This document shows positions 11,693 to 26,599 of a stretch of DNA of 32,572 nt, piece by piece. Positions within the stretch are counted from its first letter, which is position 1, and each line of letters starts with the position of its first letter. Position numbers and translations under genes: made by a program. This DNA is from Phycisphaera sp. TMED9 (lineage in GTDB: Bacteria > Planctomycetota > Phycisphaerae > Phycisphaerales > SM1A02): assembly GCA_002167845.2 (NCBI GenBank), contig NHBO02000005.1:1-32572 (forward strand), written 5' to 3'. The notes beneath the pieces are model-generated. The model had not been told where the DNA came from. It did no database searches and saw only the letters and a list, made by a program, of their open reading frames with translations.

Positions 11693-13816
11693 TCAGCCGT
11701 GACCGCTGTAGGTCGCGAGCTCCCGACGACGGAAGATGGCCCAACCCAGGCCCAGTACCAGACTCGACCAGAGGAATCCGATGACCAGGAGGTCTCTCAA
11801 CACCCCGGACCAGGCGACCAGCCGGCCTTCGATGACCAGGGAGTTCGGACTCGCCCGCCCGAACGGCTCCAGAAGGAAGGCGACGGTCGAAGCGATCCAG
11901 GCGATGCCGACCTGCACGATCTGAATGGGAAGAATCGCATCGGCATCGGGCCGAAACATCGAAACACTGTTGGTGATGAACGAAGTCATCGATCCACCGA
12001 TGAAGACGGTGAACGAAAGCAGCACCGCGATCGGAAAACTCAGGAAGGTGGCGGTCGAGACTCCGAGCATGGCGAGGAAGGCCAGTTTGGTCCAGTTGAC
12101 GATCATCGCTCGGACGAAATTGCCTTCGAAGGTCGCCGCCTGCCAGAGCACTTCGACATCGGTGGGGTCGAAGAAAAGCGTGGCGCCGTTCGCGAAGAAC
12201 CGTTCGGTGGCGTCGCTGGGCGTGAACGAGAATCCTCCGTTGAGAATCTGCAGCCGGAGCGTTCCGTCCTCATCGATCAGTCCCGCTGGAACCAGCAGGC
12301 GATGCCACTGTTCGGGCACGAATTCCTGACTGACCTGTTCGCCGAACGACGGGAAGCGAAAGATGATCGGATACCGATCCGTCGGTTCGGAGCGGCCGAT
12401 GTGGAACTGATAACGAAGCGTGAGGTTCTTCCCTTGCTCCTTGGCCGGCCCGAGACCGCGGAACTCATACACCCTCGCGTCGTATTCCTTGCCCTCGTTG
12501 AAACCCCCGGGTGAGACGGCACGCTGCTTGTCGAGGTGTTCCTTGCGAAGCCTTCGGACGATCGATCGAATGGTGTCGGCGTAGGTTCGCTCCCCCGCAT
12601 CGACCTCGCTGCGAATGATCGCGTCACCGTCGTACTCGGCCAGCGCCTTTTCACGCACTTCGTCTTCGGTGAGCCGGTCGAAGGTGGGCAGGACACCGAC
12701 TCGAGCGGTCAGAACCTCGTCGTGAACCTCGATCGCCTGCTGGGGGTCATCGGCGCGGGTACTGAGATACTGGGTGAAGGTGAAGATCGAGATGCCACCG
12801 ATGACCAGGAGGATCAGATTGAGCGACACCAGACCGACCCATTTTCCAAGCATGTACTCGAGACGCCCCATCGGCTTGGTCACGAGGTGCCAGATCTGAC
12901 GATCCCGGACCTCGAAACTGACGGTGGCGCAGGCGAGCACCAGCGTCATGCAGGCCGCCAGCGTGTAGACGAGGCTCATCGAGTCGCTGAGGAAGTTCTG
13001 CAACTGATACCGCACCGGCTCGCCGGGATCGATCCACAGGGGAATCAACGGGAGCGTGACGAGCATCAACACGATGAACGCGAACGAGATCCGAAGTCGA
13101 ACACTTTCACGAATCAGCGTGTTCGCCACCGCGGCGATGTTGACGATCATCGTGGGCCGACCATGCCGGCCCTGAGACGAGCGAGGAGACGCGATCCCCG
13201 AGAGAAGCAGCAGAAGCAGCCTGATCAAGAGCACGAAGGTGATGATCAGCAGGCCAATCCCAAGGATGGACACCACGACACCGCTGTATCCCTGCCTCCA
13301 GGGAACCGCCGCGATCGCCATGGTGCCCAGGATGGTCATGAACACGGGGACCGTGATCTCCGTCCAGACGACCATGAACAGCCAGACGAGGACCACCAAC
13401 CCGGCCCAGACGATGAAATCCGGCCGATCGATGAGCAGGCTCGGCATCCAGGAAGGGATGGTCTCGGCGATGAAGAGCGCACCGAGCTGGGCGATCTGCA
13501 TGAGACCGCCGGTCTCCTCGTCGAAGAACGCGGAGATGCCGGCCTTCACATCGGGACCACCGTAGACCTCGCCGTCGACTTCGATCTCGCCGGACTCCAG
13601 GAGCCGGTTGGCGATGGCGTTTCCCGCCAGAGCATCGGCCTCCCGAAGCACCGCGACCACGCCATCGAAACGGCTCCGGGCGTCGTTGGCCTGGCTCCAG
13701 ATCGAACCGAAGACGATCGACGTCGCGATCAGCGCCAGTCCCGAGAGGACCAGTTTCGTCAACATCTTCTTCTGGAGGTCTTCCAGAATCCGCCAGATCT
13801 TCTTGATCACGGTCAC
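11693..13816 (-). CDS. ABC-2-type exporter permease with extra N-terminal TM domain and large soluble insert
   Basis: 707 residues. The ABC-2 core starts near residue 225 (NIAAVANTLIRESVRLRISF) and includes EVRDRQIWHLVTKPMGRL and LGKWVG (302-328), typical of NosY-like permeases. It is preceded by about 220 residues with some four TM segments (20-40, 134-151, 155-172, 178-208) that ordinary ABC-2 permeases lack. Between TM segments, residues 352-575 form a soluble, probably periplasmic insert whose second half looks beta-sandwich-like (NLTLRYQFHIG, LRLQILNGGF). GTG 13816 overlaps the ATPase stop by 4 nt (GTGA), so the two are one transporter. Paralogous to the divergent permease at 20016-21053. 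Substrate unknown. Confidence 0.82.
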   Translation of the reverse strand: MTVIKKIWRILEDLQKKMLTKLVLSGLALIATSIVFGSIWSQANDARSRFDGVVAVLREADALAGNAIANRLLESGEIEVDGEVYGGPDVKAGISAFFDEETGGLMQIAQLGALFIAETIPSWMPSLLIDRPDFIVWAGLVVLVWLFMVVWTEITVPVFMTILGTMAIAAVPWRQGYSGVVVSILGIGLLIITFVLLIRLLLLLLSGIASPRSSQGRHGRPTMIVNIAAVANTLIRESVRLRISFAFIVLMLVTLPLIPLWIDPGEPVRYQLQNFLSDSMSLVYTLAACMTLVLACATVSFEVRDRQIWHLVTKPMGRLEYMLGKWVGLVSLNLILLVIGGISIFTFTQYLSTRADDPQQAIEVHDEVLTARVGVLPTFDRLTEDEVREKALAEYDGDAIIRSEVDAGERTYADTIRSIVRRLRKEHLDKQRAVSPGGFNEGKEYDARVYEFRGLGPAKEQGKNLTLRYQFHIGRSEPTDRYPIIFRFPSFGEQVSQEFVPEQWHRLLVPAGLIDEDGTLRLQILNGGFSFTPSDATERFFANGATLFFDPTDVEVLWQAATFEGNFVRAMIVNWTKLAFLAMLGVSTATFLSFPIAVLLSFTVFIGGSMTSFITNSVSMFRPDADAILPIQIVQVGIAWIASTVAFLLEPFGRASPNSLVIEGRLVAWSGVLRDLLVIGFLWSSLVLGLGWAIFRRRELATYSGHG

Positions 13817-15063
13817 CCGTTCGAACTCCGCGAGTTGTCCGAGTCGCCCAGAAGATCATCGATGATCGAATCATCATGCCCTTCAGGCTTCGAGGGGGCT
13901 TCCGTGGCGGGAGCCTTCGACTCGGGGGCTTCAGGTTTCGAGAGAAGGTCGTCGAGGACTTCGGTGTCCTGCTGGTCGTCCGAAGTCGTCTGGGAGCCGG
14001 CGCCCTCGCCGCCCTTCTCGACCGAGCGGACTTCCGCGGCCGGAGACGCTTCCTGAAGCGCATCGATCAGCGAGTCGCCTTCACCAGTGTCCACGACCTC
14101 GTCACGAGTGAGGAACGCCGCCGTCTCACCGCCCTGCAAAGCGCCGGAGGTGTCGGTGGCTTCCGATTGCGCCTGCTCGACGATGCCCATGAAGAGCTCC
14201 TCGAGACGCTGCCGAGGCTGTTCGATCGAATCGATTCCGACGCCTTGCTTCTGAAGCACCCCTTCGATCTGGTGCACGGCCTCGTCGTTCAATCGGGGCG
14301 TTCGGATGACGGTGTGGCTCGAGTCCGCCAGTAGATCTTCCGTCCGCCCTTCCCTTCGAATCTTGCCGCCGTACAGGATGACCATGCGATCACAGACGTC
14401 CTCGACGTCGGACAGCAGATGCGAACTCAGCAGAATGGTGGTTCCACGTCGCCCGAGTTCGAGCAACAGATCCTTCACCTGCCGGGTACCGATCGGATCG
14501 AGGCCCGAGGTCGGTTCATCGAGAATCAGCAACTCGGGATCGTTGATGAGGGCCTGGGCGAGCCCGAGGCGGCGACTCATGCCCTTGGAGTACTCACCGA
14601 CCGCCCGCCGCTTCACCTGTGCGAGCCCGACCATGTCGAGCAGTTCATCGATTCGACGGTTCCGAGTCCGCCGATCGAGCCCGAAGATCCGCCCGTAGTA
14701 GTCGAGGGTCTCCCGAGCGTTGAGATATCGGTACAGATAGGACTCTTCCGGCAGGTACCCGATCCGCCCCTTGATGGCGACGTCCGACGGCTCTCGATTG
14801 AACACGCTCAGACGTCCCGACGACTTGTGAAGAAGCCCGAGGATCATCTTGATGGTCGTGCTCTTGCCGGAGCCGTTGGGCCCCAGAAGACCGAAGATCT
14901 CGTGCCGATGGATCTCGAAATCGACGCCGTCGACCGCTCTGGCCTTCGCACGCTTCCAGAAGTCGGTGAAGATCTTGGTCAGACCCACGGCTTCGACGAT
15001 CGGCTCTCCAATCGACGGCCGCCCGGCCGAGTTCGTGTTCGCTGTCTGAGAATTCACCATCAT
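13813..15063 (-). CDS. ABC transporter ATP-binding protein with acidic C-terminal tail
   Basis: 416 residues. The nucleotide-binding domain has Walker A GPNGSGKST (61-69), Q-loop region YLPEES, signature YSKGMSRRLGLAQAL (158-172, a drug-exporter-type variant of LSGGQ) and Walker B LLILDEPTSGLDP (178-190). A DrrA/CcmA-like regulatory part follows to about 310. The rest, roughly 100 residues, is a low-complexity acidic tail containing three similar hydrophobic/acidic motifs: SLIDAL, VLDDLL and IIDDLL. It should energise the ABC-2 permease encoded next. ATG 15063 overlaps the stop of the HflK-like gene (ATGATG), and its stop overlaps the permease start, so the genes are translationally coupled. 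A second ATG at 15060 is equally possible. Confidence 0.9.
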   Translation of the reverse strand: MMVNSQTANTNSAGRPSIGEPIVEAVGLTKIFTDFWKRAKARAVDGVDFEIHRHEIFGLLGPNGSGKSTTIKMILGLLHKSSGRLSVFNREPSDVAIKGRIGYLPEESYLYRYLNARETLDYYGRIFGLDRRTRNRRIDELLDMVGLAQVKRRAVGEYSKGMSRRLGLAQALINDPELLILDEPTSGLDPIGTRQVKDLLLELGRRGTTILLSSHLLSDVEDVCDRMVILYGGKIRREGRTEDLLADSSHTVIRTPRLNDEAVHQIEGVLQKQGVGIDSIEQPRQRLEELFMGIVEQAQSEATDTSGALQGGETAAFLTRDEVVDTGEGDSLIDALQEASPAAEVRSVEKGGEGAGSQTTSDDQQDTEVLDDLLSKPEAPESKAPATEAPSKPEGHDDSIIDDLLGDSDNSRSSNG

Positions 15064-16529
15064 TCGCCCGCTCCTTCACGGCCGTATCCGCCGGTGGCAT
15101 CCTTGTTCAAGCGACGGCCCGCCTTGTCGATGTTGATCTGGCGGGAGCCGAGCTGCCACACGTTTCCGTCGATCCCGGTCTGCATCGCCTCTCGACGACG
15201 CCGCTCCGCGGACGCATCCCGACGTCTCGTCGTGATGTCCATCGAGCTCTTCATCCGAAGCGCCAAACCTCGGAGACCGGGAGGCGCGGAGATCATCTCC
15301 ACCTCGGGTCCCGCGAGCACATCTCGATACGCATCGAGCCAGAGCTGCCGGACGAGCTGCTGAGGATTCTCTTCATAGGCCGGCACCAGACTCGCAAGCC
15401 TTCGAGCATCGTTCCCGATACCTGCTTCGATCATCGATCGGAAGGCACGTGCTTCGGTCATCGTCTTCGCGGCCTCGCCACCGACATCGTCGGCCTCGAA
15501 CCTCGCTCCGATCCGCGTCAGCACCGCCTCCGCCTCGGTCTCGTTGCCACCGCTCAAGGCGGATTCATAGTCACCGATCAGGGAGATCAGATCCGCGAGG
15601 GCCGACGCACCGGCGGCGTCATCGAGAATGGTCGTGCTCTCACGACGAGCGACTTCCACCGCGATCTTGGCTCGCTCTCGAGCCCCCTGCACGCTCTGCA
15701 CTCCACGGCGAACCGCCAGAGGAGGAATGCGATCGGTCACGGAGACCCCGACGAGTCGGATTCCACTCTCCAACGAGTTCAACGCTTCCTGGGCCCGTCG
15801 CCGAATCTCCAGAATCGCCTCGTCGCCCTCGATGAACTGGGGCAGCGTCATGGTCGCCGCGGTATGAATCGCGGCCTGCTCGAGCACGAGTTTGACGACC
15901 TCATCCCCCTGCTCCGGCGTGAACCGGACGAGGAAGGAGACGGCATCGTCGATGGAATATTCACCGGTCATCCGACAGTGGGCGAGATCCCCGCCCTCCA
16001 GGATGAGGGTTCCGTCACCGAGTCCGACCGGACCGGGACGAAGGGGCGCACTGGTTCGAGCACTGGCCGTCGCTTCTTCGATGGTCAGCGAGCGCGAACC
16101 GAAATTGGGCCAGAAGGACTGCTCGACCGACACCGTTCTCTTGAGCGGAACCGTGATGATCTCACCTACCGGGTAGGGCCAGAAAGGCTGCAGGCCCGCC
16201 GAGATCTGAGCGTCCGCACCATCACCCTGTATCGCCCCGAAGAGCGTTCTGATGCCGGTGCGGTTCTCTCGGACCGTCTCGAAACCACTGAAGATGAAGA
16301 CCACGGCCAGCGCGAGAATCGCGAACTGGAGCACGCGGTAGCTGAGCCGCAGCGCCTCGGTCAGGCTCTGATTGGCGGGATCCATCGCATCGCGAAGATC
16401 GGCCTCGGAAGCGGCGCCGGCGACCACGGTGAACTCCGCGGACTTCTCGCGCCGCGGTGCCTCCTCGATCAAGCCGTCCTCTTCTTCGCGGACCGGCTCG
16501 AATGAATCAGGGGGAGTCTCTTCGCTCAC
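15060..16529 (-). CDS. SPFH/band-7 (HflK-like) membrane protein
   Basis: 489 residues. An acidic cytoplasmic N-terminus (1-65) precedes one TM (VLQFAILALAVVFIFSG, 67-83), then an SPFH-type region beginning FETVRENRTGIRTLFGAI. The middle contains the sort of turn seen in HflK (GEYSIDDAVSFLVRF), and a long helical part (about 280-400) suits SPFH oligomerisation. The C-terminus is basic and polar. HflK/HflC complexes form cage-like assemblies around FtsH; no ftsH is present here. GTG 16529 overlaps the HflC-like stop by 4 nt (GTGA). Divergent from classical HflK, so the assignment rests on the SPFH-like pattern plus the adjacent HflC-like gene. Confidence 0.78.
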   Translation of the reverse strand: MSEETPPDSFEPVREEEDGLIEEAPRREKSAEFTVVAGAASEADLRDAMDPANQSLTEALRLSYRVLQFAILALAVVFIFSGFETVRENRTGIRTLFGAIQGDGADAQISAGLQPFWPYPVGEIITVPLKRTVSVEQSFWPNFGSRSLTIEEATASARTSAPLRPGPVGLGDGTLILEGGDLAHCRMTGEYSIDDAVSFLVRFTPEQGDEVVKLVLEQAAIHTAATMTLPQFIEGDEAILEIRRRAQEALNSLESGIRLVGVSVTDRIPPLAVRRGVQSVQGARERAKIAVEVARRESTTILDDAAGASALADLISLIGDYESALSGGNETEAEAVLTRIGARFEADDVGGEAAKTMTEARAFRSMIEAGIGNDARRLASLVPAYEENPQQLVRQLWLDAYRDVLAGPEVEMISAPPGLRGLALRMKSSMDITTRRRDASAERRRREAMQTGIDGNVWQLGSRQINIDKAGRRLNKDATGGYGREGAGE

Positions 16530-17464
16530 TTTGAATCTCCCGATCCGGTCTCGACGTACTTCGATTCCGGCTGGGGAATGCCGTTCGGACCGGCACTCGA
16601 TTCCAGATCGATGAGATGGAACGGCGCCTTGGTCATGTCGGTGACGAAGGTCGTCGATCCCCGAAGTCCGACTCGAAGCGTGTCCAGCCAGGAAAGGAAG
16701 ATCGCGAGATCCGCATGGTCACGCATCTGCTCGTAGTACCGGGTCGCTTCCTGATTTCCCCTCGCTTCGATCACCGCCGCCCACTGCTCGGCGAAGTCGC
16801 GGATGATCTGCGCCTGAGCCTGAGCCCGCTGCTTGATGGTGCTGGCCTCGGAGTTGCCTCGGGCCTCTTCGAGATTCGCCAGGGTCTCCTGCACCGCCGA
16901 CATCCGGCGCATCACCGCCGTCGTGGTCTTCGGTGGGAAGGCGACTCGGCTGATTCCCACCGAGATGGGGACCACGCCACTCGTCGCGTTGGCCTGAACG
17001 TCCGCCAGGATCGCCTGTTCCGCCTCTGGAAGCTTGCTGTCCGCACCGATCAACTGGTCGAACTCATAGCCGCCGACCTGACCGAGCGAACCCTGCAGAA
17101 GCGTCTCGAGGTCACGCTGGGCTCCGGCCAGAGAGCCGTAACTGTTGTGGAATGATTGCGACTGCTCGTCATCCTCGCCGACCTTCCAGAGCATGAAGGC
17201 CTGCACCATGACCTGCTGACCATCTCGCGTCTGCACGGTCTTGATCGGCGACTTCACGAACTGCTGTCGGGTGTCCAGCTTGGCGACCGAATCGATGAAG
17301 AACGGAAGCTTGAAGTGGAGCCCCGGTTCACGAATGATGCCGGCCGGACGGCCGAGCCTCGTCTTGATCGCCACTTCATGGAAGTTCACCGTGAAGGTCG
17401 TGTTGAAGAGAATCAACACGAACACGAGAAGAAGGGCGATGACGGCGGTGATTGTCTTGCTCAT
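16526..17464 (-). CDS. HflC-like SPFH/band-7 protein
   Basis: 312 residues with HflC architecture: an N-terminal TM (ITAVIALLLVFVLILFNTTF, 5-24), then the band-7 opening TVNFHEVAIKTRLGRPAG and IIREPGLHFKLPFFIDSVAKLDTR, very close to classical HflC. The helical stretch EEARGNSEASTIKQRAQAQ followed by ARGNQEATRYYEQM is the EA-rich coiled-coil of the family. It is likely to sit at the inner membrane in a hetero-oligomer with the two neighbouring SPFH proteins. ATG 17464 follows the previous gene after 67 nt; no clear Shine-Dalgarno sequence is seen. Confidence 0.88.
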   Translation of the reverse strand: MSKTITAVIALLLVFVLILFNTTFTVNFHEVAIKTRLGRPAGIIREPGLHFKLPFFIDSVAKLDTRQQFVKSPIKTVQTRDGQQVMVQAFMLWKVGEDDEQSQSFHNSYGSLAGAQRDLETLLQGSLGQVGGYEFDQLIGADSKLPEAEQAILADVQANATSGVVPISVGISRVAFPPKTTTAVMRRMSAVQETLANLEEARGNSEASTIKQRAQAQAQIIRDFAEQWAAVIEARGNQEATRYYEQMRDHADLAIFLSWLDTLRVGLRGSTTFVTDMTKAPFHLIDLESSAGPNGIPQPESKYVETGSGDSK

Positions 17465-17531
17465 GGTTCAATTTGCTCGGACGCGGGTCGTTGAAAGGAA
17501 TCGGAGGGGCGGAGCTGGATTCGGATCTCCA

Positions 17532-19679
17532 TCAGCCGCCTGGCGCCGGATCCTCGAGATAGTCACGGAGGTTGAGCCCTCCATCTGGTTCCTGCATTTC
17601 GATTTCAAGATCCGTTCGACTCGGGTCGACGGCGAGGATGTACTTCGATCGCACCGACTGGAGCACCTCGCGGAGAATCTCCATCACCCGACGCTCCTCG
17701 TAGAGCTCGGGAGCGGCCTCATAGGCGCTGACCTGACCGAGCACCTCGGCGGCGTTGCGGCGGGCGTCCATGTGGATCTTCCAGCGGAGACTCCGGGCGC
17801 TGGCGATGAACGAGGCGATGAAGCCCTGGCTCTCTCGAACCATCCGCTCGGCTTCCACACGGGCCTCGATCGTGGCCTTCGCATCCGGCCCCTGCGTGCG
17901 TTCGATCTCGCGGTACCGCGTGATCAACGCCACGATTTCCTTGGCTCGCTCGGAATCACCGACCAGCCCCGCCAATGCCGCATTGGCCGTTCGGTCGGCT
18001 TCAATGAGGATCTTTCTGACGTTCTGCGTGTCGATCGCCAGTTCTTCGAACATCGAAACCGAATCGCCGGGAGGTCGAAGCGCGGGGATCGCGACCGAGA
18101 CGACGTCGACTCCGGTGTCGCCGGCATCGAATTCCTTCTGGATTCGCTGACGAAGTTCGGTCGGAAGGACCGAACCCTGCGGCGACAACACCTCTTCGAG
18201 CGGCAACTGCGAGAAGGTCTGAGTGACGACCCGCAAGGCGATTTCCTGAAGCGCCTGCTGACGCATGTTCAGGGAACTTCGCTTCAACTTCACGTCGTTG
18301 CTGAAGTTCAGGTACTCGACCAGCGCTCCGGGCTTCACTCGATATCGAAGGATCACATCCACATCGAGCAGCGCGAACTGATTCGTCACCACCTGAGCGG
18401 GCTCGTCGGATGCGGCGAACCCCGCCGCCTCGTCAAGGCGATCCTGTGCCACTTCCAGCTGGTCGACCGAACGGGTGACCTCCGCCGGAAGCGGATTCGC
18501 GGAAACGAGGAAGAGTTCGTTGATCGGTTCTTCGGCGGGATCCCAGAGATCCGTCACCTTCACCTCACGCGGCGTGCCGTTGAGGCTCAGTTCTCGAATC
18601 CTCGCCGAATCGACGATGGTGACGGTCTCCAGCGGCCAGGGCCACTTGAACATCGTCGAACCTTCGTACACCTCTCCGACGATCCGACCACCTCGAAGAC
18701 GAACCGCCTGTTGCCCAGGCTCGACGATCACCACGGTGCTGAGACCGACGAGCACCACGAAGGCGAACGCGACGAGCCAGGCGAAGCTCCGAAGGAGCAG
18801 CTGGTAACCCCATGAACTCGTGATATCGAAGCCGAACTGATAGTTCACGGCCTCGTTGATCGATCGGACGATCGAATCGGGCGCCGCGAAGAGGCTCAGA
18901 ATCCGCGAATCGAAGGCGGGCCGCGGGATTTCTCCGGGCCGACGAGGGCGGTAGAGGTTCAGGACGAAGTTGAGCACGATCTCCGCCGCCACCAGCAGCA
19001 TGTAGATCGCGAGCCCCCACGTGACGCCTTCCAGCACCGCGGGATTGTCGAAGAATCGGAATGCGATGCCGACCGCGACCGCCAGCAGCACCAACGCGTT
19101 GCCGACCATGTGGCCGGCACCTCCGCGGAGATTGCCCCAGGCCGAACGAGCCGCCATGCCGGCGACGAATCGAGAGAAGATGAATGCGAAGAGGGCCAGA
19201 GCCAGCGTGATGGCCAACTGCCATCCGAGATGATCGCCCACCTGGAACGGCACCACGTTCAACTCGGGATCGTTCTGCCATTCGAACCAGGCCAGCGTCC
19301 GCCAACCAAAGAAGACCAGCAGACCGGCGACCAGAAGACTGGCGACCGGCATGAGCCAGGTATGCATGAGCCGAAGCCGCCGAGCGGCGATGTCGGTCTC
19401 ACCTTCCTCGAAGATCCCCGCGGCTTCTTCGCCCCGCTCGGCCGCGAGGTCATCGCGTTCGAGCGCTTCGAGACGTTCGAGCCGGTGCTGATGGAACACC
19501 ACGATGAGCGCGATCCATACCAGGGTCCCCACCAGGATCGGCTCACTCGCCACCTGGAACGCGGAGTCCTTGAAGATGAACCCGTACACCAGCATGATCA
19601 GGCCGATGGCGGCCTGGAGCAGGAATCCCATGCCGGCGACGCGAGTGGCCTGCTGATAGGCGAGATGGTCGGTTCTCAT
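17532..19679 (-). CDS. SPFH (HflK-like) protein fused to an N-terminal multi-TM domain
   Basis: 715 residues from ATG 19679. The first 310 residues hold about seven TM segments (near 16-34, 46-62, 108-126, 155-172, 190-208, 220-242, 297-317). A charged loop (64-104) and the PRRPGEIPRP linker lie between them. The last TM leads straight into an HflK-type band-7 region (VVIVEPGQQAVRLRGG, FKWPWPLETVTIVDS), with the usual LDVDVILRYRV strand, a C-terminal helical domain and an acidic end (DYLEDPAPGG). HflK proteins normally have one TM, so the polytopic part is extra. The open frame continues far upstream, but that part is Asp/Arg/Gln-rich and antiparallel to the permease gene at 20016-21053, so I start at 19679. 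First well-supported gene of the minus-strand operon. Confidence 0.87.
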   Translation of the reverse strand: MRTDHLAYQQATRVAGMGFLLQAAIGLIMLVYGFIFKDSAFQVASEPILVGTLVWIALIVVFHQHRLERLEALERDDLAAERGEEAAGIFEEGETDIAARRLRLMHTWLMPVASLLVAGLLVFFGWRTLAWFEWQNDPELNVVPFQVGDHLGWQLAITLALALFAFIFSRFVAGMAARSAWGNLRGGAGHMVGNALVLLAVAVGIAFRFFDNPAVLEGVTWGLAIYMLLVAAEIVLNFVLNLYRPRRPGEIPRPAFDSRILSLFAAPDSIVRSINEAVNYQFGFDITSSWGYQLLLRSFAWLVAFAFVVLVGLSTVVIVEPGQQAVRLRGGRIVGEVYEGSTMFKWPWPLETVTIVDSARIRELSLNGTPREVKVTDLWDPAEEPINELFLVSANPLPAEVTRSVDQLEVAQDRLDEAAGFAASDEPAQVVTNQFALLDVDVILRYRVKPGALVEYLNFSNDVKLKRSSLNMRQQALQEIALRVVTQTFSQLPLEEVLSPQGSVLPTELRQRIQKEFDAGDTGVDVVSVAIPALRPPGDSVSMFEELAIDTQNVRKILIEADRTANAALAGLVGDSERAKEIVALITRYREIERTQGPDAKATIEARVEAERMVRESQGFIASFIASARSLRWKIHMDARRNAAEVLGQVSAYEAAPELYEERRVMEILREVLQSVRSKYILAVDPSRTDLEIEMQEPDGGLNLRDYLEDPAPGG

Positions 19680-19888
19680 GAGCCTCGATCCGATGAGATC
19701 GCTGAAAGATCGCAAGTGAGTACGGTCGATGTTCGCATCGACGGTCGAAACAGGCACCGGAACACGAAGTGTGTCCTGGCATTCCCCGCGGGAAACACCC
19801 GGACGGTTCCGGTCAGGCCGATCCCCCGAACCTCGGCTCGTCCCGAGGGTACGATGCCGAGGTCGACGAGTTCGGCCCAGCTGGTCAT
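19676..19888 (-). CDS. Possible small protein upstream of the SPFH operon (70 residues)
   Basis: An open frame starts at ATG 19888, preceded by GAGGGGG at a suitable distance, and ends in a TGA sharing ATGA with the SPFH-fusion start. That coupling is the style of this operon. The peptide begins MTSWAELVDLGIVPSG and has no TM, signal or recognised motif. G/C-ending codons are common in the first half and less so in the second. Against it: the AT-rich spot at its start is also the best promoter island in the divergent region, so this could instead be a 5' leader. No family recognised. Confidence 0.3.
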   Translation of the reverse strand: MTSWAELVDLGIVPSGRAEVRGIGLTGTVRVFPAGNARTHFVFRCLFRPSMRTSTVLTCDLSAISSDRGS

Positions 19889-21908: not shown

Positions 21909-23225
21909 TCAGTTGCGCTGGCGAGCCCGCTGTCGCCGGAGCTCCTCGATCTGACGTCGGATCGGATCCGGATCGGGCGGAAGACCCATTTCGTAGACCA
22001 GCACCGGGTAGCACCGGTTGTACCAACCGAGAAGTTCCTTCAGCAGGGTGATGGCCTTCTCGGGATTTCTCTGGAGCTCGGCATTGAGCCGGGGGATGCG
22101 TTCACGACACTGCTTGACGTTTCGCTGCCATCGCTCGTGAATCTTGCGGCCGGAGTCGTTCACTTCATGCCATTCCGGAAGGTCCAGGAGAACCGCAAGC
22201 TCGTCGGTGGTGTTGGCGACGCCGTCCGCGTACCCGCAATCGATCGCGTTGTCGACGTTGAGCGTGAGAACGTTCTTGTCGTCGGAGATGTCGAACTCGC
22301 CCTGCATGTCGGGGTAGATCGTGACCTTCCCGGTCTCCGAATCCTTGTCGTAACTGGCCATCGCGGTTCGGGTCACCATGCAGCGGGCGATGATCGGATC
22401 TCGACCGCCGATCTCGGCCACTTCGCTGAACTTCTCAAGCCATGCGTCGAGCTCGGCACCGGAAATCGCGGTCTGCCCCGCGTACATCACCGCGGAACCC
22501 ATCGCACCGACCTGCATGAAGTAGATCTCGTCACAGTGAAGCGAGGTGAAGGCCGCGGCGGAGATCGCTTCCTTGATCCAGGCCACGACGCGGTGCCGCT
22601 GCTTCACATCCTTCAACGTCTCGTGGATCTTGTCGCCTTCGATCACCAGGCCGCCCGGCGAGTTGATCTGAAGCACGATGATCTGACCGGGACCGTACTT
22701 GTCGGCCTCCTCGATGATCGCCTTGATCTCGTCGTGGCGAGCCTCGATGCCGACCGGACCTTCCCACGGCATGAAGAAGACGCCCGGCTTGGAGGACTTG
22801 AGGAAACCGTCCTCTCCAGTGGTCGTGATGGCGGGCTTCGATGTCTTGCCGTCCGATCCAGATCGATCCGCATCGGTGGTCTTGGCGGCGGGAGTCCCGG
22901 CCGACGCTGATGCGTTGCCGTCGCCCGAGGCCTTCATGCTCACGATGTCTGGTGCGAAGATTCCCTTGGTCGCCTCGCGTCCGGCGATCTGGCCGCGGAT
23001 GAAGACGATCTGAAATCCGGGTTTTCCATCGATCTTCTTGATCACGCCGGTCATCGACTGCTCGATGCCCTGCTCGTTGAACACGACGTCGACGAGTGCG
23101 CCATCGTCTCCGCGCCAACTCGAGCCGTTGGAGAAGGCCAACTCGTACTGGTCGGCCGACGCAGTGTGTCCTCCGACCAGAAGGCCGATGAGGAGCGCGA
23201 GGATCGTGGCGATTCGAATCTGCAT
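21909..23225 (-). CDS. Secreted ClpP-fold (NfeD/SppA-like) protein
   Basis: 438 residues. Signal peptide 1-24 (IATILALLIGLLVGGHTASA), then a small beta domain (26-95) and a Ser/Thr/Ala-rich linker (100-145). A ClpP-like protease domain follows: QIIVLQINSPGGLVIEGDKI (181-200) with the oxyanion-loop SPGG, then KEAISAAAFTSLHCDEIYF with candidate nucleophile Ser222, and VGAMGSAVMYAG. These match the NfeD/SppA N-terminal protease region. The Lys of the Ser-Lys dyad cannot be placed with certainty (Lys265 is near). The C-terminal 100 residues are helical and charged, ending RRQRARQRN. There is no NfeD TM/OB-fold part, so it is a soluble, exported form. It follows the gene at 23323 after 97 nt. Confidence 0.8.
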   Translation of the reverse strand: MQIRIATILALLIGLLVGGHTASADQYELAFSNGSSWRGDDGALVDVVFNEQGIEQSMTGVIKKIDGKPGFQIVFIRGQIAGREATKGIFAPDIVSMKASGDGNASASAGTPAAKTTDADRSGSDGKTSKPAITTTGEDGFLKSSKPGVFFMPWEGPVGIEARHDEIKAIIEEADKYGPGQIIVLQINSPGGLVIEGDKIHETLKDVKQRHRVVAWIKEAISAAAFTSLHCDEIYFMQVGAMGSAVMYAGQTAISGAELDAWLEKFSEVAEIGGRDPIIARCMVTRTAMASYDKDSETGKVTIYPDMQGEFDISDDKNVLTLNVDNAIDCGYADGVANTTDELAVLLDLPEWHEVNDSGRKIHERWQRNVKQCRERIPRLNAELQRNPEKAITLLKELLGWYNRCYPVLVYEMGLPPDPDPIRRQIEELRRQRARQRN

Positions 23226-23322
23226 GAGTGCTGTTTCTCAGTCAAAGGTCATTGAAGACCGGAATGAAATCAATACGTGTGACGCCCCGCGGGCGGGCCG
23301 AAGGAGGGTGCCGTGCCGAGGT

Positions 23323-24462
23323 TCAGAGTCCTCGACCACCACCGCCGCCACGCCCGCTGTTCCCGCCCCGGCGACCACTGCCTCGGTTTCCCCGACGCAT
23401 GTCACCGATCTGGTCCTTGATACCCTCGATCTGAAGTTCGAGTTGCAGGATGCTCATTCCGTAGTCCTGCTGCCAGCGAGCAGCGACCGCGGGATACTGC
23501 TTGCAGGCCCGGAGGATTCTCTCGAGGTCGGTCTTGGCCGCACCGAGATAACGAATCGCCTCGTCGCCGCTCGCCCAGCCAAGCTTCTGCTGGGCATCGG
23601 CGTACCACGACTTGCAGCGATCGAAGGTGCGACGCCAGTCTTCGACGTACTTCTCGACCATGTCCTTGCCGCTCTCGACTTCGTCGTACTCGCGATACCC
23701 GAGCAGGAACATCAGGTCGTCGAGATTCTCGACGGTACCCTCCGAAAGACCCATGTCCTCGGCGAGACTCGCGCTGAAGTTGGCGACGCCTTCGTCATTG
23801 GAATCGACGACCCACTGTCCGGCGGTGTCGTTCGTCCAGGTCACCTTGCGTCCCTTGAAGCTCGCGCTCAACGCGTACTCAGGCCGCATCATCGCCCAGC
23901 CGATTTCCAGCGGATAACCGCCGAGTTGGAGAAAACCATTGCCCATGCCGACCCAGGCGTTGAGCATCTTCGATGCCACGTCGGGGTCACTCCATCCCGC
24001 CGCCATGCTGGAGACCCGGGCGAGTCCCCAGAGCCGGGCGCCGTCGGACATGTACATCTCGGGCCATGACAACGCGAGCAGACTTCCCAGACCGACCGAA
24101 TCCTCGACCCACATCACCTGCCGTGCATCAAGCTTCTGATGCAACGCGCGGGCGAGGTCTCGATATTCGCCGATCTTGGCCAGGCCGAACTCGCGGCGAT
24201 CATCGTTGCCGGCGAGATAGAAGTTGTTGTCGATGTCCGCGGACTTGAGTTGATAGACGATCACGTCCGGATTGACCTTCAGCGCGTCTTCAATCACCTC
24301 GTCATAGATCGAGGGGTGGATGTCCGTTCCCATCTGGCCGCTCATCGGCACGACGTAGACGACCGGAACTCGGTTGTCGGAGGCGCTGGCCACCGCTGGA
24401 AAAGAGACTGCAAAGCCTGCGATGGCGATGCCGGCCATGGAAATGGACTTCTTCAAGGACAT
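23323..24462 (-). CDS. Secreted ClpP-fold-like protein, probably without catalytic serine
   Basis: 379 residues, signal peptide 1-28 (ISMAGIAIAGFAVSFPAVAS). The following VPVVYVVPMSGQMGTDIHPS, then VNPDVIVYQLKSADIDNNF and QVMWVEDSVGLGSLLALSW, PEMYMSDGARLWG, run parallel to its neighbour's protease domain. Where the neighbour has NSPGG this protein has KSADI, and the Ser222 position falls on Gly124, so it looks like a pseudo-protease. The C-terminal part (230-355) is helical with many Tyr/Trp/Lys, and the end is a Gly/Arg tail (RGSGRRGGNSGRGGGGGRG). ATG 24462 has GGAG 6 nt upstream. Likely cotranscribed with the downstream active-type paralogue. Homology is inferred by eye. Confidence 0.65.
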   Translation of the reverse strand: MSLKKSISMAGIAIAGFAVSFPAVASASDNRVPVVYVVPMSGQMGTDIHPSIYDEVIEDALKVNPDVIVYQLKSADIDNNFYLAGNDDRREFGLAKIGEYRDLARALHQKLDARQVMWVEDSVGLGSLLALSWPEMYMSDGARLWGLARVSSMAAGWSDPDVASKMLNAWVGMGNGFLQLGGYPLEIGWAMMRPEYALSASFKGRKVTWTNDTAGQWVVDSNDEGVANFSASLAEDMGLSEGTVENLDDLMFLLGYREYDEVESGKDMVEKYVEDWRRTFDRCKSWYADAQQKLGWASGDEAIRYLGAAKTDLERILRACKQYPAVAARWQQDYGMSILQLELQIEGIKDQIGDMRRGNRGSGRRGGNSGRGGGGGRGL

Positions 24463-24629: not shown

Positions 24630-25868
24630 TCAATCGGCCTTCACGTCTCTCGAACCGAGATCCAGAGTCGCTCGTGCCAGATCCAACGCCTCTTCCAGCG
24701 TGTGCACCCGCCCCTCCAGTTGGGCGTCATACACCGAGAACAAAACTCGTCCGAAGGCGGGCCCGGGCGAGATTCCCGCCTCAATCAGATCATCACCGCG
24801 GAGCAGCGGGGTCGGCGCGAGGCCTGTTTTCCGCAGTTCTTCGACGGAATCCCGGATCTCGACCGCCAGTTCAGGGCGTTCGATCTTCACCAGGCCAAGG
24901 CTGCGATCGAACAGCCGACTGGAGGCAAGCCTCTTGCGGCCGGCCACGGCGAAGCCGCTCCAATCCTCCAGAATCCGCCGCCGCGTCTTCAGCAACTCCG
25001 CGACATCCAAGCGCTCCTCATTGGAGAGAACGAGATGCTCACCGAGTCGCTCGACCATGTGGGTGGGCGATGCCCGATCCAACTCCCACGCCACGAGCGC
25101 ATCAATCCACTCCACCTTCGCGGGGAAGCCCGCCAGAAGATCGAATCTTCGGGCTCCGGTTCGAGAATCACCGAGAATCGTGCGGTCGAGCCCGGTCGAC
25201 TCCGCCAACCGTGCGGCGATGACTCTTCCGGGATCGGCGAGCATTCTCCGCAGTTCGTGACCCACCCGCTCACGACTCACGCCCGCCAGGCGATCCGCCC
25301 GTGCCGTGATCGCGGCTTCGGTCGCCGGGTCGATGGCGAGATCGAATCTCGCCGCGAAACGAATCCCCCGCAACATCCGGAGCCGGTCCTCCTCGAACCG
25401 ATCCTCAGGCTCGCCGATCGCTCGGAGCAGTCGCTGATCGAGATCATCCCGACCACCGACGAAATCAACGACCGCCCCGCTGACCGGATGCTCGAAGATT
25501 CCGTTGATCGTGAAATCCCGTCGAAGTGCATCGGCCTCCGCGGAACCGAAACTGACGCGACCCGGACGACGGCCGTCCTCGTAGGCGAAATCCGAGCGGA
25601 AGGTCGCGACTTCAAGCATGCGGCCGAGACTCGGAACCAGCATCACACCGAAACTCGCGCCGACGCCGCGGGCGGTTGGAAACAGCTCCAGGACTCGTTC
25701 CGGAACCGCCTCGGTCGCGATGTCGAAGTCCACCGGTTCGAGACCGAGCAGACGATCACGGACGCATCCTCCAGCGAAGTAGGTCTCGTGACCGTGCTCG
25801 ATCAGGACCTCCGCCACCGCCCGAGCGGCGGCTTTCGGCGTCACCGATGGGTCGTTCCGCCGGCTCAC
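24630..25868 (-). CDS. cca: CCA tRNA nucleotidyltransferase / poly(A) polymerase family protein
   Basis: 412 residues, class II nucleotidyltransferase. The catalytic head is FAGGCVRDRLLGLEPVDFDI (31-50), with the GGxVRD loop and Asp47/Asp49. RRDFTINGIF and the GGRDDLDQRLLRAIG strand follow, then EDRFEEDRLRMLRGIRFAAR, the family's ribose/base-recognition motif. The helical tail is of normal length. It probably adds CCA to tRNA 3' ends, needed since the tRNA-Ser gene in this window does not encode CCA; poly(A) polymerase activity cannot be excluded. GTG 25868 overlaps the plsC stop by 4 nt (GTGA), so I prefer it to the upstream ATG 25952, which would lie inside plsC. Confidence 0.92.
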   Translation of the reverse strand: MSRRNDPSVTPKAAARAVAEVLIEHGHETYFAGGCVRDRLLGLEPVDFDIATEAVPERVLELFPTARGVGASFGVMLVPSLGRMLEVATFRSDFAYEDGRRPGRVSFGSAEADALRRDFTINGIFEHPVSGAVVDFVGGRDDLDQRLLRAIGEPEDRFEEDRLRMLRGIRFAARFDLAIDPATEAAITARADRLAGVSRERVGHELRRMLADPGRVIAARLAESTGLDRTILGDSRTGARRFDLLAGFPAKVEWIDALVAWELDRASPTHMVERLGEHLVLSNEERLDVAELLKTRRRILEDWSGFAVAGRKRLASSRLFDRSLGLVKIERPELAVEIRDSVEELRKTGLAPTPLLRGDDLIEAGISPGPAFGRVLFSVYDAQLEGRVHTLEEALDLARATLDLGSRDVKAD

Positions 25869-26599
25869 GGCGCGGACTCCGAAATCGCCTGATCCGCGGG
25901 TCCGGGAGCCGGATAGTCCGGGCCGAATCTCGCGCGAAGCCGAGCCCGACATCGGAGACGAAGTTCATCGACCTCTTCCTCCAGCCGTTTCATCGCCGCC
26001 GGCACGCCGTCCGCGAGCAACTCCGCCGAGGTGATCGGTTCACCGGCTTCACATTCGATCGCGCGGCGCCATCGAGGCTTCGACCGATTCCTCGGCCATG
26101 CGTCGAACGCGCCGTCGATGCCGATGGGAATCACGATGGCATCCGCCCGCCTGAGCAAGAGGGCCACGCCGGACTTGAACGTCTTGACGGTTCCATCCGG
26201 CGTCCTGGTTCCTTCGGGATAGATCAACACACAGCGACCCGCCTGCAATTCGGAGATCGCCGCCCGCATCACCGCCTTGTCGCCGCCTCCACCGGAGACC
26301 GGCATGGCTCCCAGCGAGTGGATCAACCATCCGAACGGTCCTCGGAAGAGTGTCTCGCGAGCGAACGGACGAAACGGACGGTCGTTGATCAACGCGCCGT
26401 TGATCGCCGGATCGACGAAGGACTGATGATTCGAGAGATAGAGCAGTGGACCTTCGCGGGGGATTCGATCACGCCCGGTCACCCGAAGCCCGAAGGCCAC
26501 CCGGAGGAACCCTTCGCTGATCGACTGGCAGATGTCCCACCAGAACGTCGCGATCGCTCGTCGCCCCGGGGCACGCCGTGCGAATTGAAACCGCCTCAC
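25865..26599 (-). CDS. plsC: 1-acyl-sn-glycerol-3-phosphate acyltransferase
   Basis: 244 residues. It should transfer an acyl chain to lysophosphatidic acid to give phosphatidic acid at the inner membrane. The catalytic NHQSFVD motif (His58, Asp63) is the HX4D box, FARETLFRGPFGWLIHSLG holds motif II, YPEGTRTPDG (128-136) is the glycerophosphate-binding EGTR motif, and VIPIGIDGAFDAWP is motif IV. A hydrophobic N-terminal helix (ISEGFLRVAFGL) suits membrane attachment. ATG 26599 overlaps the cmk stop by 4 nt. The cmk-plsC pair is a common bacterial arrangement. Confidence 0.92.
   Translation of the reverse strand: MRRFQFARRAPGRRAIATFWWDICQSISEGFLRVAFGLRVTGRDRIPREGPLLYLSNHQSFVDPAINGALINDRPFRPFARETLFRGPFGWLIHSLGAMPVSGGGGDKAVMRAAISELQAGRCVLIYPEGTRTPDGTVKTFKSGVALLLRRADAIVIPIGIDGAFDAWPRNRSKPRWRRAIECEAGEPITSAELLADGVPAAMKRLEEEVDELRLRCRARLRARFGPDYPAPGPADQAISESAP

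Follow-up and report, generated by a model that had tools for sequence, protein, structure and literature searches.

The 32,572-nucleotide stretch of Phycisphaera sp. TMED9 DNA analysed here (the window; contig C69, from a 3.3 Mb genome in 94 contigs that is 94.5% complete) carries two tandem genes for protease-like proteins with signal peptides, one of which has a serine at the expected active-site position and the other a glycine, and thus raises the question of whether the second protein is a dead copy or a functional part of the enzyme. A sequence-only reading of the locus had called the former plausible, with an enzyme accompanied by a pseudoprotease acting as its regulator or adaptor. 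Both open reading frames are present on the minus strand as that reading described them: the gene for the protein referred to here as PSE lies upstream (23323–24462, 379 residues) and that for ACT downstream (21909–23225, 438 residues), with 97 nt between them. ACT comprises a signal peptide, an N-terminal β-domain, a protease-like domain and C-terminal helices, and PSE a signal peptide, C-terminal helices and a glycine-rich tail (residues 363–379, 23326–23376), the last being common in the family, with Gly374 found in 72 of 77 rows. The motifs singled out earlier are likewise all in place, namely SPGG (residues 189–192, 22650–22661) and SAAAF with Ser222 in ACT, and KSADI and VGLGS in PSE, where Gly124 occupies the serine position. 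In line with the proposed signal peptides, hydropathy analysis detects a single N-terminal hydrophobic stretch per protein (best 19-residue means of 1.94 and 1.91 for the two proteins), whereas a further membrane segment is not expected in either, as the highest 19-residue means beginning past residue 40 are 1.14 and 0.94. Furthermore, a Pfam search of the two proteins returned neither an NfeD OB nor a membrane domain, which bears out the earlier remark that the NfeD membrane/OB part is missing from both.

To place the two proteins structurally, we turned to AlphaFold monomer models, computed from 45 aligned sequences for ACT and 44 for PSE and reaching mean pLDDT values of 86.7 and 85.7, respectively. 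The best structural match of both is 1510-N (6m4b), with a Z score of 23.0 for ACT (1.9 Å over 181 residues) and of 17.1 for PSE (2.6 Å over 179 residues), so that, as judged from the predicted models, both proteins are of the ClpP fold proposed for them and closest to the 1510-N structures. The sequence-only reading had named a different fold of the 379-residue protein, or a serine in its active site, as findings that would speak against it; the window's protein is modelled as a ClpP fold with Gly124 at that site. In both models a short helix directly follows the residue at the serine position (PSE 125–130 after Gly124; ACT 223–229 after Ser222), PSE Lys165 and ACT Ala257 sit early in a long helix (PSE 160–181; ACT 256–272), and long helices make up the C-terminal part. 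Sequence profiles recognize the two proteins unequally: Pfam NfeD1b_N scores 81.6 bits on ACT against a cut-off of 40 but just 15.4 bits on PSE, which reaches no Pfam cut-off, and the same profile is matched at E ≤ 0.01 by 45/45 aligned ACT members versus 7/44 for PSE. A direct profile–profile comparison with hhalign nevertheless aligns ACT with PSE over 306 columns at 99.9% probability (E 2.4e-33), pairing ACT Ser222 with PSE Gly124 and ACT Ala257 with PSE Lys165, and because the profiles match at this level and the pair recurs in the same order, the likeness is not due to chance. We do not offer the N-terminal β-domain of ACT as general evidence for duplication, since it is found in only 7/95 PSE rows at E < 1e-3. 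A search of the PSE profile against PDB sequences gave 32 matches, with no ClpP-fold entry by name among them and with the alignments shown covering the helical and glycine-rich end.

The closest characterized relative provides the key to the catalytic residues. 1510-N, the NfeD1b or STOPP protein of Pyrococcus horikoshii (PH1510), is described as a serine protease with a Ser97–Lys138 dyad, the S97A and K138A variants of which show no activity (PMC3795559). An NfeD protein from the same phylum as the window (L133) bridges our alignments to this structure: its serine falls on the position mutated in the S97A entry, and its lysine on the one mutated in the K138A entry, where wild-type 1510-N has a lysine. 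By this comparison of wild type and mutant, the lysine column is a catalytic position of the family, and PSE Lys165 (codon 23968–23970), the equivalent of 1510-N Lys138, falls into it. The spacing between the serine and lysine positions is also the same, 41 residues in PSE (124 to 165) and in 1510-N (97 to 138).

We then asked how the two residues are distributed between the chains, bearing in mind that all residue counts depend on the alignment and that the sequences of close relatives are not independent. In separate alignments, from which the duplicate loci L011 and L056 were dropped before counting, ACT position 222 (22560–22562), the presumed nucleophile, is serine in 99 of 101 rows, and Gly191 and Gly192 of the SPGG motif, the presumed oxyanion-hole loop, are each kept in 101/101. 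Position 124 of PSE (24091–24093), which occupies the place of the nucleophilic serine, is glycine in 90 of 92 rows, with Gln and Ala in the other two, and Lys165 is a lysine in every one of 94 aligned rows. A joint MAFFT alignment, which leaves out fragmentary or weak domains (L145 d2, L148 d2, L149 d2, L055 d1) and rows covering <80% of the domain, gives the same picture for PSE (Lys 92/92, Gly at the serine position 90/92). ACT, from which L055 and a third copy at L042 were removed while L048 and L054 were retained, has serine in 97/98 rows (the single glycine being L054) but lysine in the family-lysine column in just 11/98, eight of which resemble each other in sequence; allowing for a shift of ±1 position raises this to 12/98. 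The window's own ACT has Ala257 (22455–22457) at the expected site of the family lysine, aligned with PSE Lys165 by hhalign and MAFFT alike. By comparison, the NfeD-type relatives carry both residues in one chain (Ser 20/21, Lys 21/21 domains); these 21 domains derive from the 19 best-scoring loci and L055, were picked by the PSE or ACT profile without representing the whole phylum, and lie in loci that mostly extend ~1.5 kb to each side, so that single-chain here means one matching open frame in that stretch. When columns are ordered by weighted entropy, that of the lysine comes first of 235 in PSE and third of 235 in the relatives but only 203rd of 221 in ACT. For the serine column the ranks are 8th of 221 (ACT) and 5th of 235 (relatives); in PSE the glycine found there stands 4th of 235 and thus itself looks constrained. 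From these column counts and ranks, and at the level of aligned residues, neither ACT nor PSE alone has a complete dyad, which is instead divided between the two chains.

This pattern holds in loci gathered after it had been seen. Out of 40 further loci, 9 were already in the set and were dropped, and among the 31 new ones PSE precedes ACT on one strand in 29. The new ACT rows have serine in 29/29 and lysine in the column in 0/29, with one row carrying a lysine one place off; the new PSE rows have lysine in 31/31 (29 in the column, 2 one place off) and, at the serine position, Gly in 28 and Ser in 3 (L164, L193 and L194). A pseudoprotease is expected to have catalytic residues that are no longer conserved, whereas in PSE the lysine is kept throughout both the original and the new rows. 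The label "dead" had rested on the serine only and overlooked the second catalytic residue, and since Lys165 is invariant and ACT is without a conserved lysine at that place, a complete enzyme with a dead regulator is no longer the leading view and is probably wrong.

The two genes also travel together, as the sequence-only reading had suggested one should check. In an ACT-based scan of named genome contigs, PSE lies directly upstream of ACT in 63 of 65 loci, a count made up of 62 as listed and L113, whose stop-to-stop open frame sorts before PSE though its ACT match follows PSE; the remaining two loci begin at a contig end. The PSE profile finds matches in 138 of 201 genomes from this order, which sets an upper bound for PSE itself because the weak matches include single-chain relatives, and across 294 genomes of the phylum all PSE matches with E below 1e-20 fall in this order. 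Within it, strong or paired matches occur in four (f1–f4) of the six families sampled; f5 has none and f6 a single weak match, the lone L048. A tree computed without the serine and lysine columns, from a random 22 ACT and 22 PSE rows plus those of the window, L048 and L054, joins ACT and PSE (support 100/97) and leaves the relatives with both Ser and Lys outside; the ACT rows and the PSE rows each fall into one group, supported by 96/93 for ACT and a modest 89/52 for PSE, with L041, L054 and others forming long branches. Because the tree joins the two lineages to the exclusion of the dyad-bearing relatives, it suggests, from sequence, one duplication followed by complementary loss of the dyad residues. 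Furthermore, the ACT and PSE tree distances retain partial correlations of 0.63 and 0.73 after neighboring genes are accounted for (29 and 33 loci), the highest of the pairs tested.

We propose that ACT and PSE, the products of this split duplication, probably form a heteromer whose two chains together restore a single Ser(ACT)–Lys(PSE) site in trans, in a manner similar to SppA. In this model, a single NfeD1b/1510-N-type Ser–Lys protease gene would have been duplicated in the ancestor of four of the six sampled families, after which the ACT copy would have retained the serine together with the glycines of the oxyanion hole while losing the lysine, and the PSE copy would have retained the lysine and fixed a glycine in the serine's place. 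Both proteins would be exported, presumably to the periplasm, where PSE Lys165 may reach over the interface between the subunits to activate ACT Ser222, so that each heterodimer would have a single working site and neither protein could cut alone. In 1510-N, one peptide is reported to bind per dimer and the two residue-138 positions to lie very close together (PMC3795559), and for this reason an ACT–PSE heterodimer could be expected to hold a single Ser–Lys site free of lysine–lysine repulsion. B. subtilis SppA, the active sites of which are described as built by two adjacent monomers (PMC7568657), offers a precedent for a site formed in trans, and the residue pattern of the pair is consistent with a dyad assembled in this way. 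We are more tentative about a stricter version, to which we give somewhat less than an even chance, in which the pair would be an obligate two-gene protease with its dyad formed only across the ACT–PSE interface and the dyad of the NfeD1b homodimer would itself act in trans, enabling its division between two genes. The two 1510-N dyads are described as facing each other (PMC10153343), which reads as one dyad per protomer and counts against a trans geometry in the NfeD1b/1510-N family.

If the proposed assembly is correct, an apparent dead paralogue would supply half of an active site, a warning that judging a protein to be a pseudoenzyme by its nucleophile alone can mislead. The pair would then represent a natural experiment in which envelope proteases of the ClpP fold are seen to operate a Ser–Lys dyad across subunits, and since activity would need both gene products, a protease acting outside the cytoplasm would come with a safety lock of its own. 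The question can be tested by mixing the two purified proteins. Our searches, which covered open-licence PubMed Central papers, found no description of such a split-dyad gene pair.

Other readings account for parts of the same data. That ACT is a full protease by itself, with some other base doing the work of the family lysine and PSE as a regulating or adapting pseudoenzyme, agrees with the serine and glycine loop kept in ACT, the replacement of the PSE serine by glycine in 90/92 rows and the conserved pairing, but we regard it as unlikely, given that no ACT Lys or His column is conserved at a plausible place and that a purely regulatory role would leave it unexplained why no column of PSE is more conserved than that of Lys165. 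The only ACT histidine columns above 55% are 164, 211 and 230, and the only lysine columns above 55% are 176 (63/102) and 361 (67/100), none of them plausibly placed. Nor, by these columns, is a ClpP-type (S14) catalytic histidine conserved after the serine of ACT; position 247, at Ser+25 as for the histidine of ClpP, is a nearly invariant Met in a ten-row ACT alignment.

Less probable still is that neither protein is a protease and that the heteromer serves as a scaffold or peptide-binding device, with Ser222 and Lys165 kept for binding or structure. Catalytic activity of the pair is a prediction, both models end in long helices, and one relative copy (at L042) has lost both residues, all of which would suit a scaffold; yet the residues retained are precisely the two catalytic ones, in complementary chains, together with both glycines of the ACT SPGG loop. 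The fixed order and adjacency of the genes in 63/65 and 29/31 loci, although a neighbor such as SPFH1 was not found in 13/48, and the top-ranking distance correlation make it very improbable that ACT and PSE are independent neighbors by history, each acting with other partners or as a homomer, even though unlinked or orphan copies such as L041, L054, L193 and L197 are what such independence would produce.

Returning to the shared Ser–Lys site, the pair can be set against known proteases of the fold. It has in common with 1510-N the fold, the Ser and Lys positions, nearby SPFH genes and, for ACT, the NfeD1b_N match; in 1510-N, however, one chain is described as carrying both residues and then continuing into membrane helices and an OB domain (PMC10153343), whereas here they reside on two exported chains without a membrane/OB part. 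SppA is a single gene product and is described as membrane-anchored (PMC9360617), unlike ACT–PSE. The Peptidase_S49 domain is absent from the Pfam hits of ACT and PSE, and TIGR00706 (SppA) scores 40.5 bits against a cut-off of 155.45. In E. coli SppA (67K), the catalytic Lys209 belongs to the first half of the sequence and the catalytic Ser409 to the second, the Lys-then-Ser order being that of the PSE and ACT genes. A direct equation of PSE with the N-terminal half of SppA was nevertheless dropped, as the structural alignment superposed PSE on the C-terminal half of the E. coli protein, and assignments of ACT to SppA, ClpP or SDH proteases gave weak or partial hits only, CLP_protease exceeding its Pfam cut-off on ACT by 1.7 bits over 49 residues. 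Among genomes of the genus, the 8 searched, that of the window (G000) included, are without a Peptidase_S49 match, and the domain is present in 38/61 relatives, which in some cases (e.g., G010, G015 and G019) carry the pair too, so that the pair is not a simple, mutually exclusive replacement for SppA. ClpP/ClpR heteromers share the fold and likewise mix complete with incomplete subunits; they are Ser-His-Asp enzymes working with ATP-driven unfoldases, in the cytosol or in plastids, and their inactive subunits are not known to supply a missing catalytic residue.

Several copies depart from the common arrangement, and L164, L193, L194, L048, the third copy at L042 and the orphans L041 and L054, together with the 11/98 ACT rows with Lys and the modest tree support for PSE, count against the split-site reading. 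L164 has a PSE with both Ser and Lys although it is paired with ACT, and in L193 and L194 (genus g251) a PSE-lineage chain with Ser and Lys has no ACT in its stretch; where PSE is not beside ACT, as in these two, the serine-carrying lysine chain could, judging by its residues, work alone. A rule that PSE regains its serine whenever apart from ACT fits L193 and L194 but is contradicted by L164 and by the orphan L041, which has Gly; moreover, an ACT gene is found on another contig of the genome of L193 (G440) and likewise in G491 of the same genus, and we therefore keep this idea only as a lead. In the genome of L194 (G473), no ACT was found at E ≤ 0.001. L048, the only relative in its 10.5 kb stretch, has the serine but Arg in the lysine column, and lone members thus do not always keep the dyad; L054 is an orphan with Gly and with its Lys one place off. 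Three lone members from genus g282 (L203, L204 and L209), the printed stretches of which were inspected by eye only, appear to keep both residues, and no clear ACT–PSE pair was found in their genomes. Separately, L210 encodes a protein of the PSE lineage that combines Ser and Lys in one chain and does not adjoin ACT, and the PSE paralogue at L041 (3445–4689, minus strand, G034), which carries Lys and Gly, comes from a genome that encodes a full pair as well. The third tandem ACT-type copy at L042 (4024–5220, minus strand, G038) has Gly at the serine position and no Lys in the column, which makes it, by these residues, a candidate true pseudoenzyme next to a split pair. At L135 (709–2889, minus strand), a 726-residue NfeD-type open frame contains two ClpP-fold domains, the first with Ala for Ser and the Lys kept and the second with both residues, an intermediate-looking arrangement.

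The surroundings of the pair point to possible clients. SPFH/Band_7 protein 1 (SPFH1; 17532–19700, start codon approximate, minus strand), a possible client or partner, is encoded downstream, in the orientation of the pair, in 35 of the 48 loci long enough to show it, and SPFH/Band_7 protein 2 (16526–17464, minus strand) downstream in 28 of 40. In the window, a third SPFH/Band_7 gene (15060–16529, minus strand) follows, and the region 13813–19700 as a whole consists of the three consecutive SPFH/Band_7 genes and then an ABC ATPase gene, all on the minus strand. An opposite-strand ABC-2 gene, found downstream of the pair in 38/53 loci, sits between the pair and the SPFH genes in the window, and we therefore do not regard them as one operon. 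As NfeD1b–SPFH1b operons are known (PMC2636767), the SPFH proteins are the first candidate clients, by gene association only and by analogy with 1510-N and stomatin. On the other side of the pair, a gene for a CCA tRNA nucleotidyltransferase (24630–25952, minus strand) lies upstream on the same strand in 47 of the 53 loci with room for it, a conserved neighbor that is not part of the enzyme.
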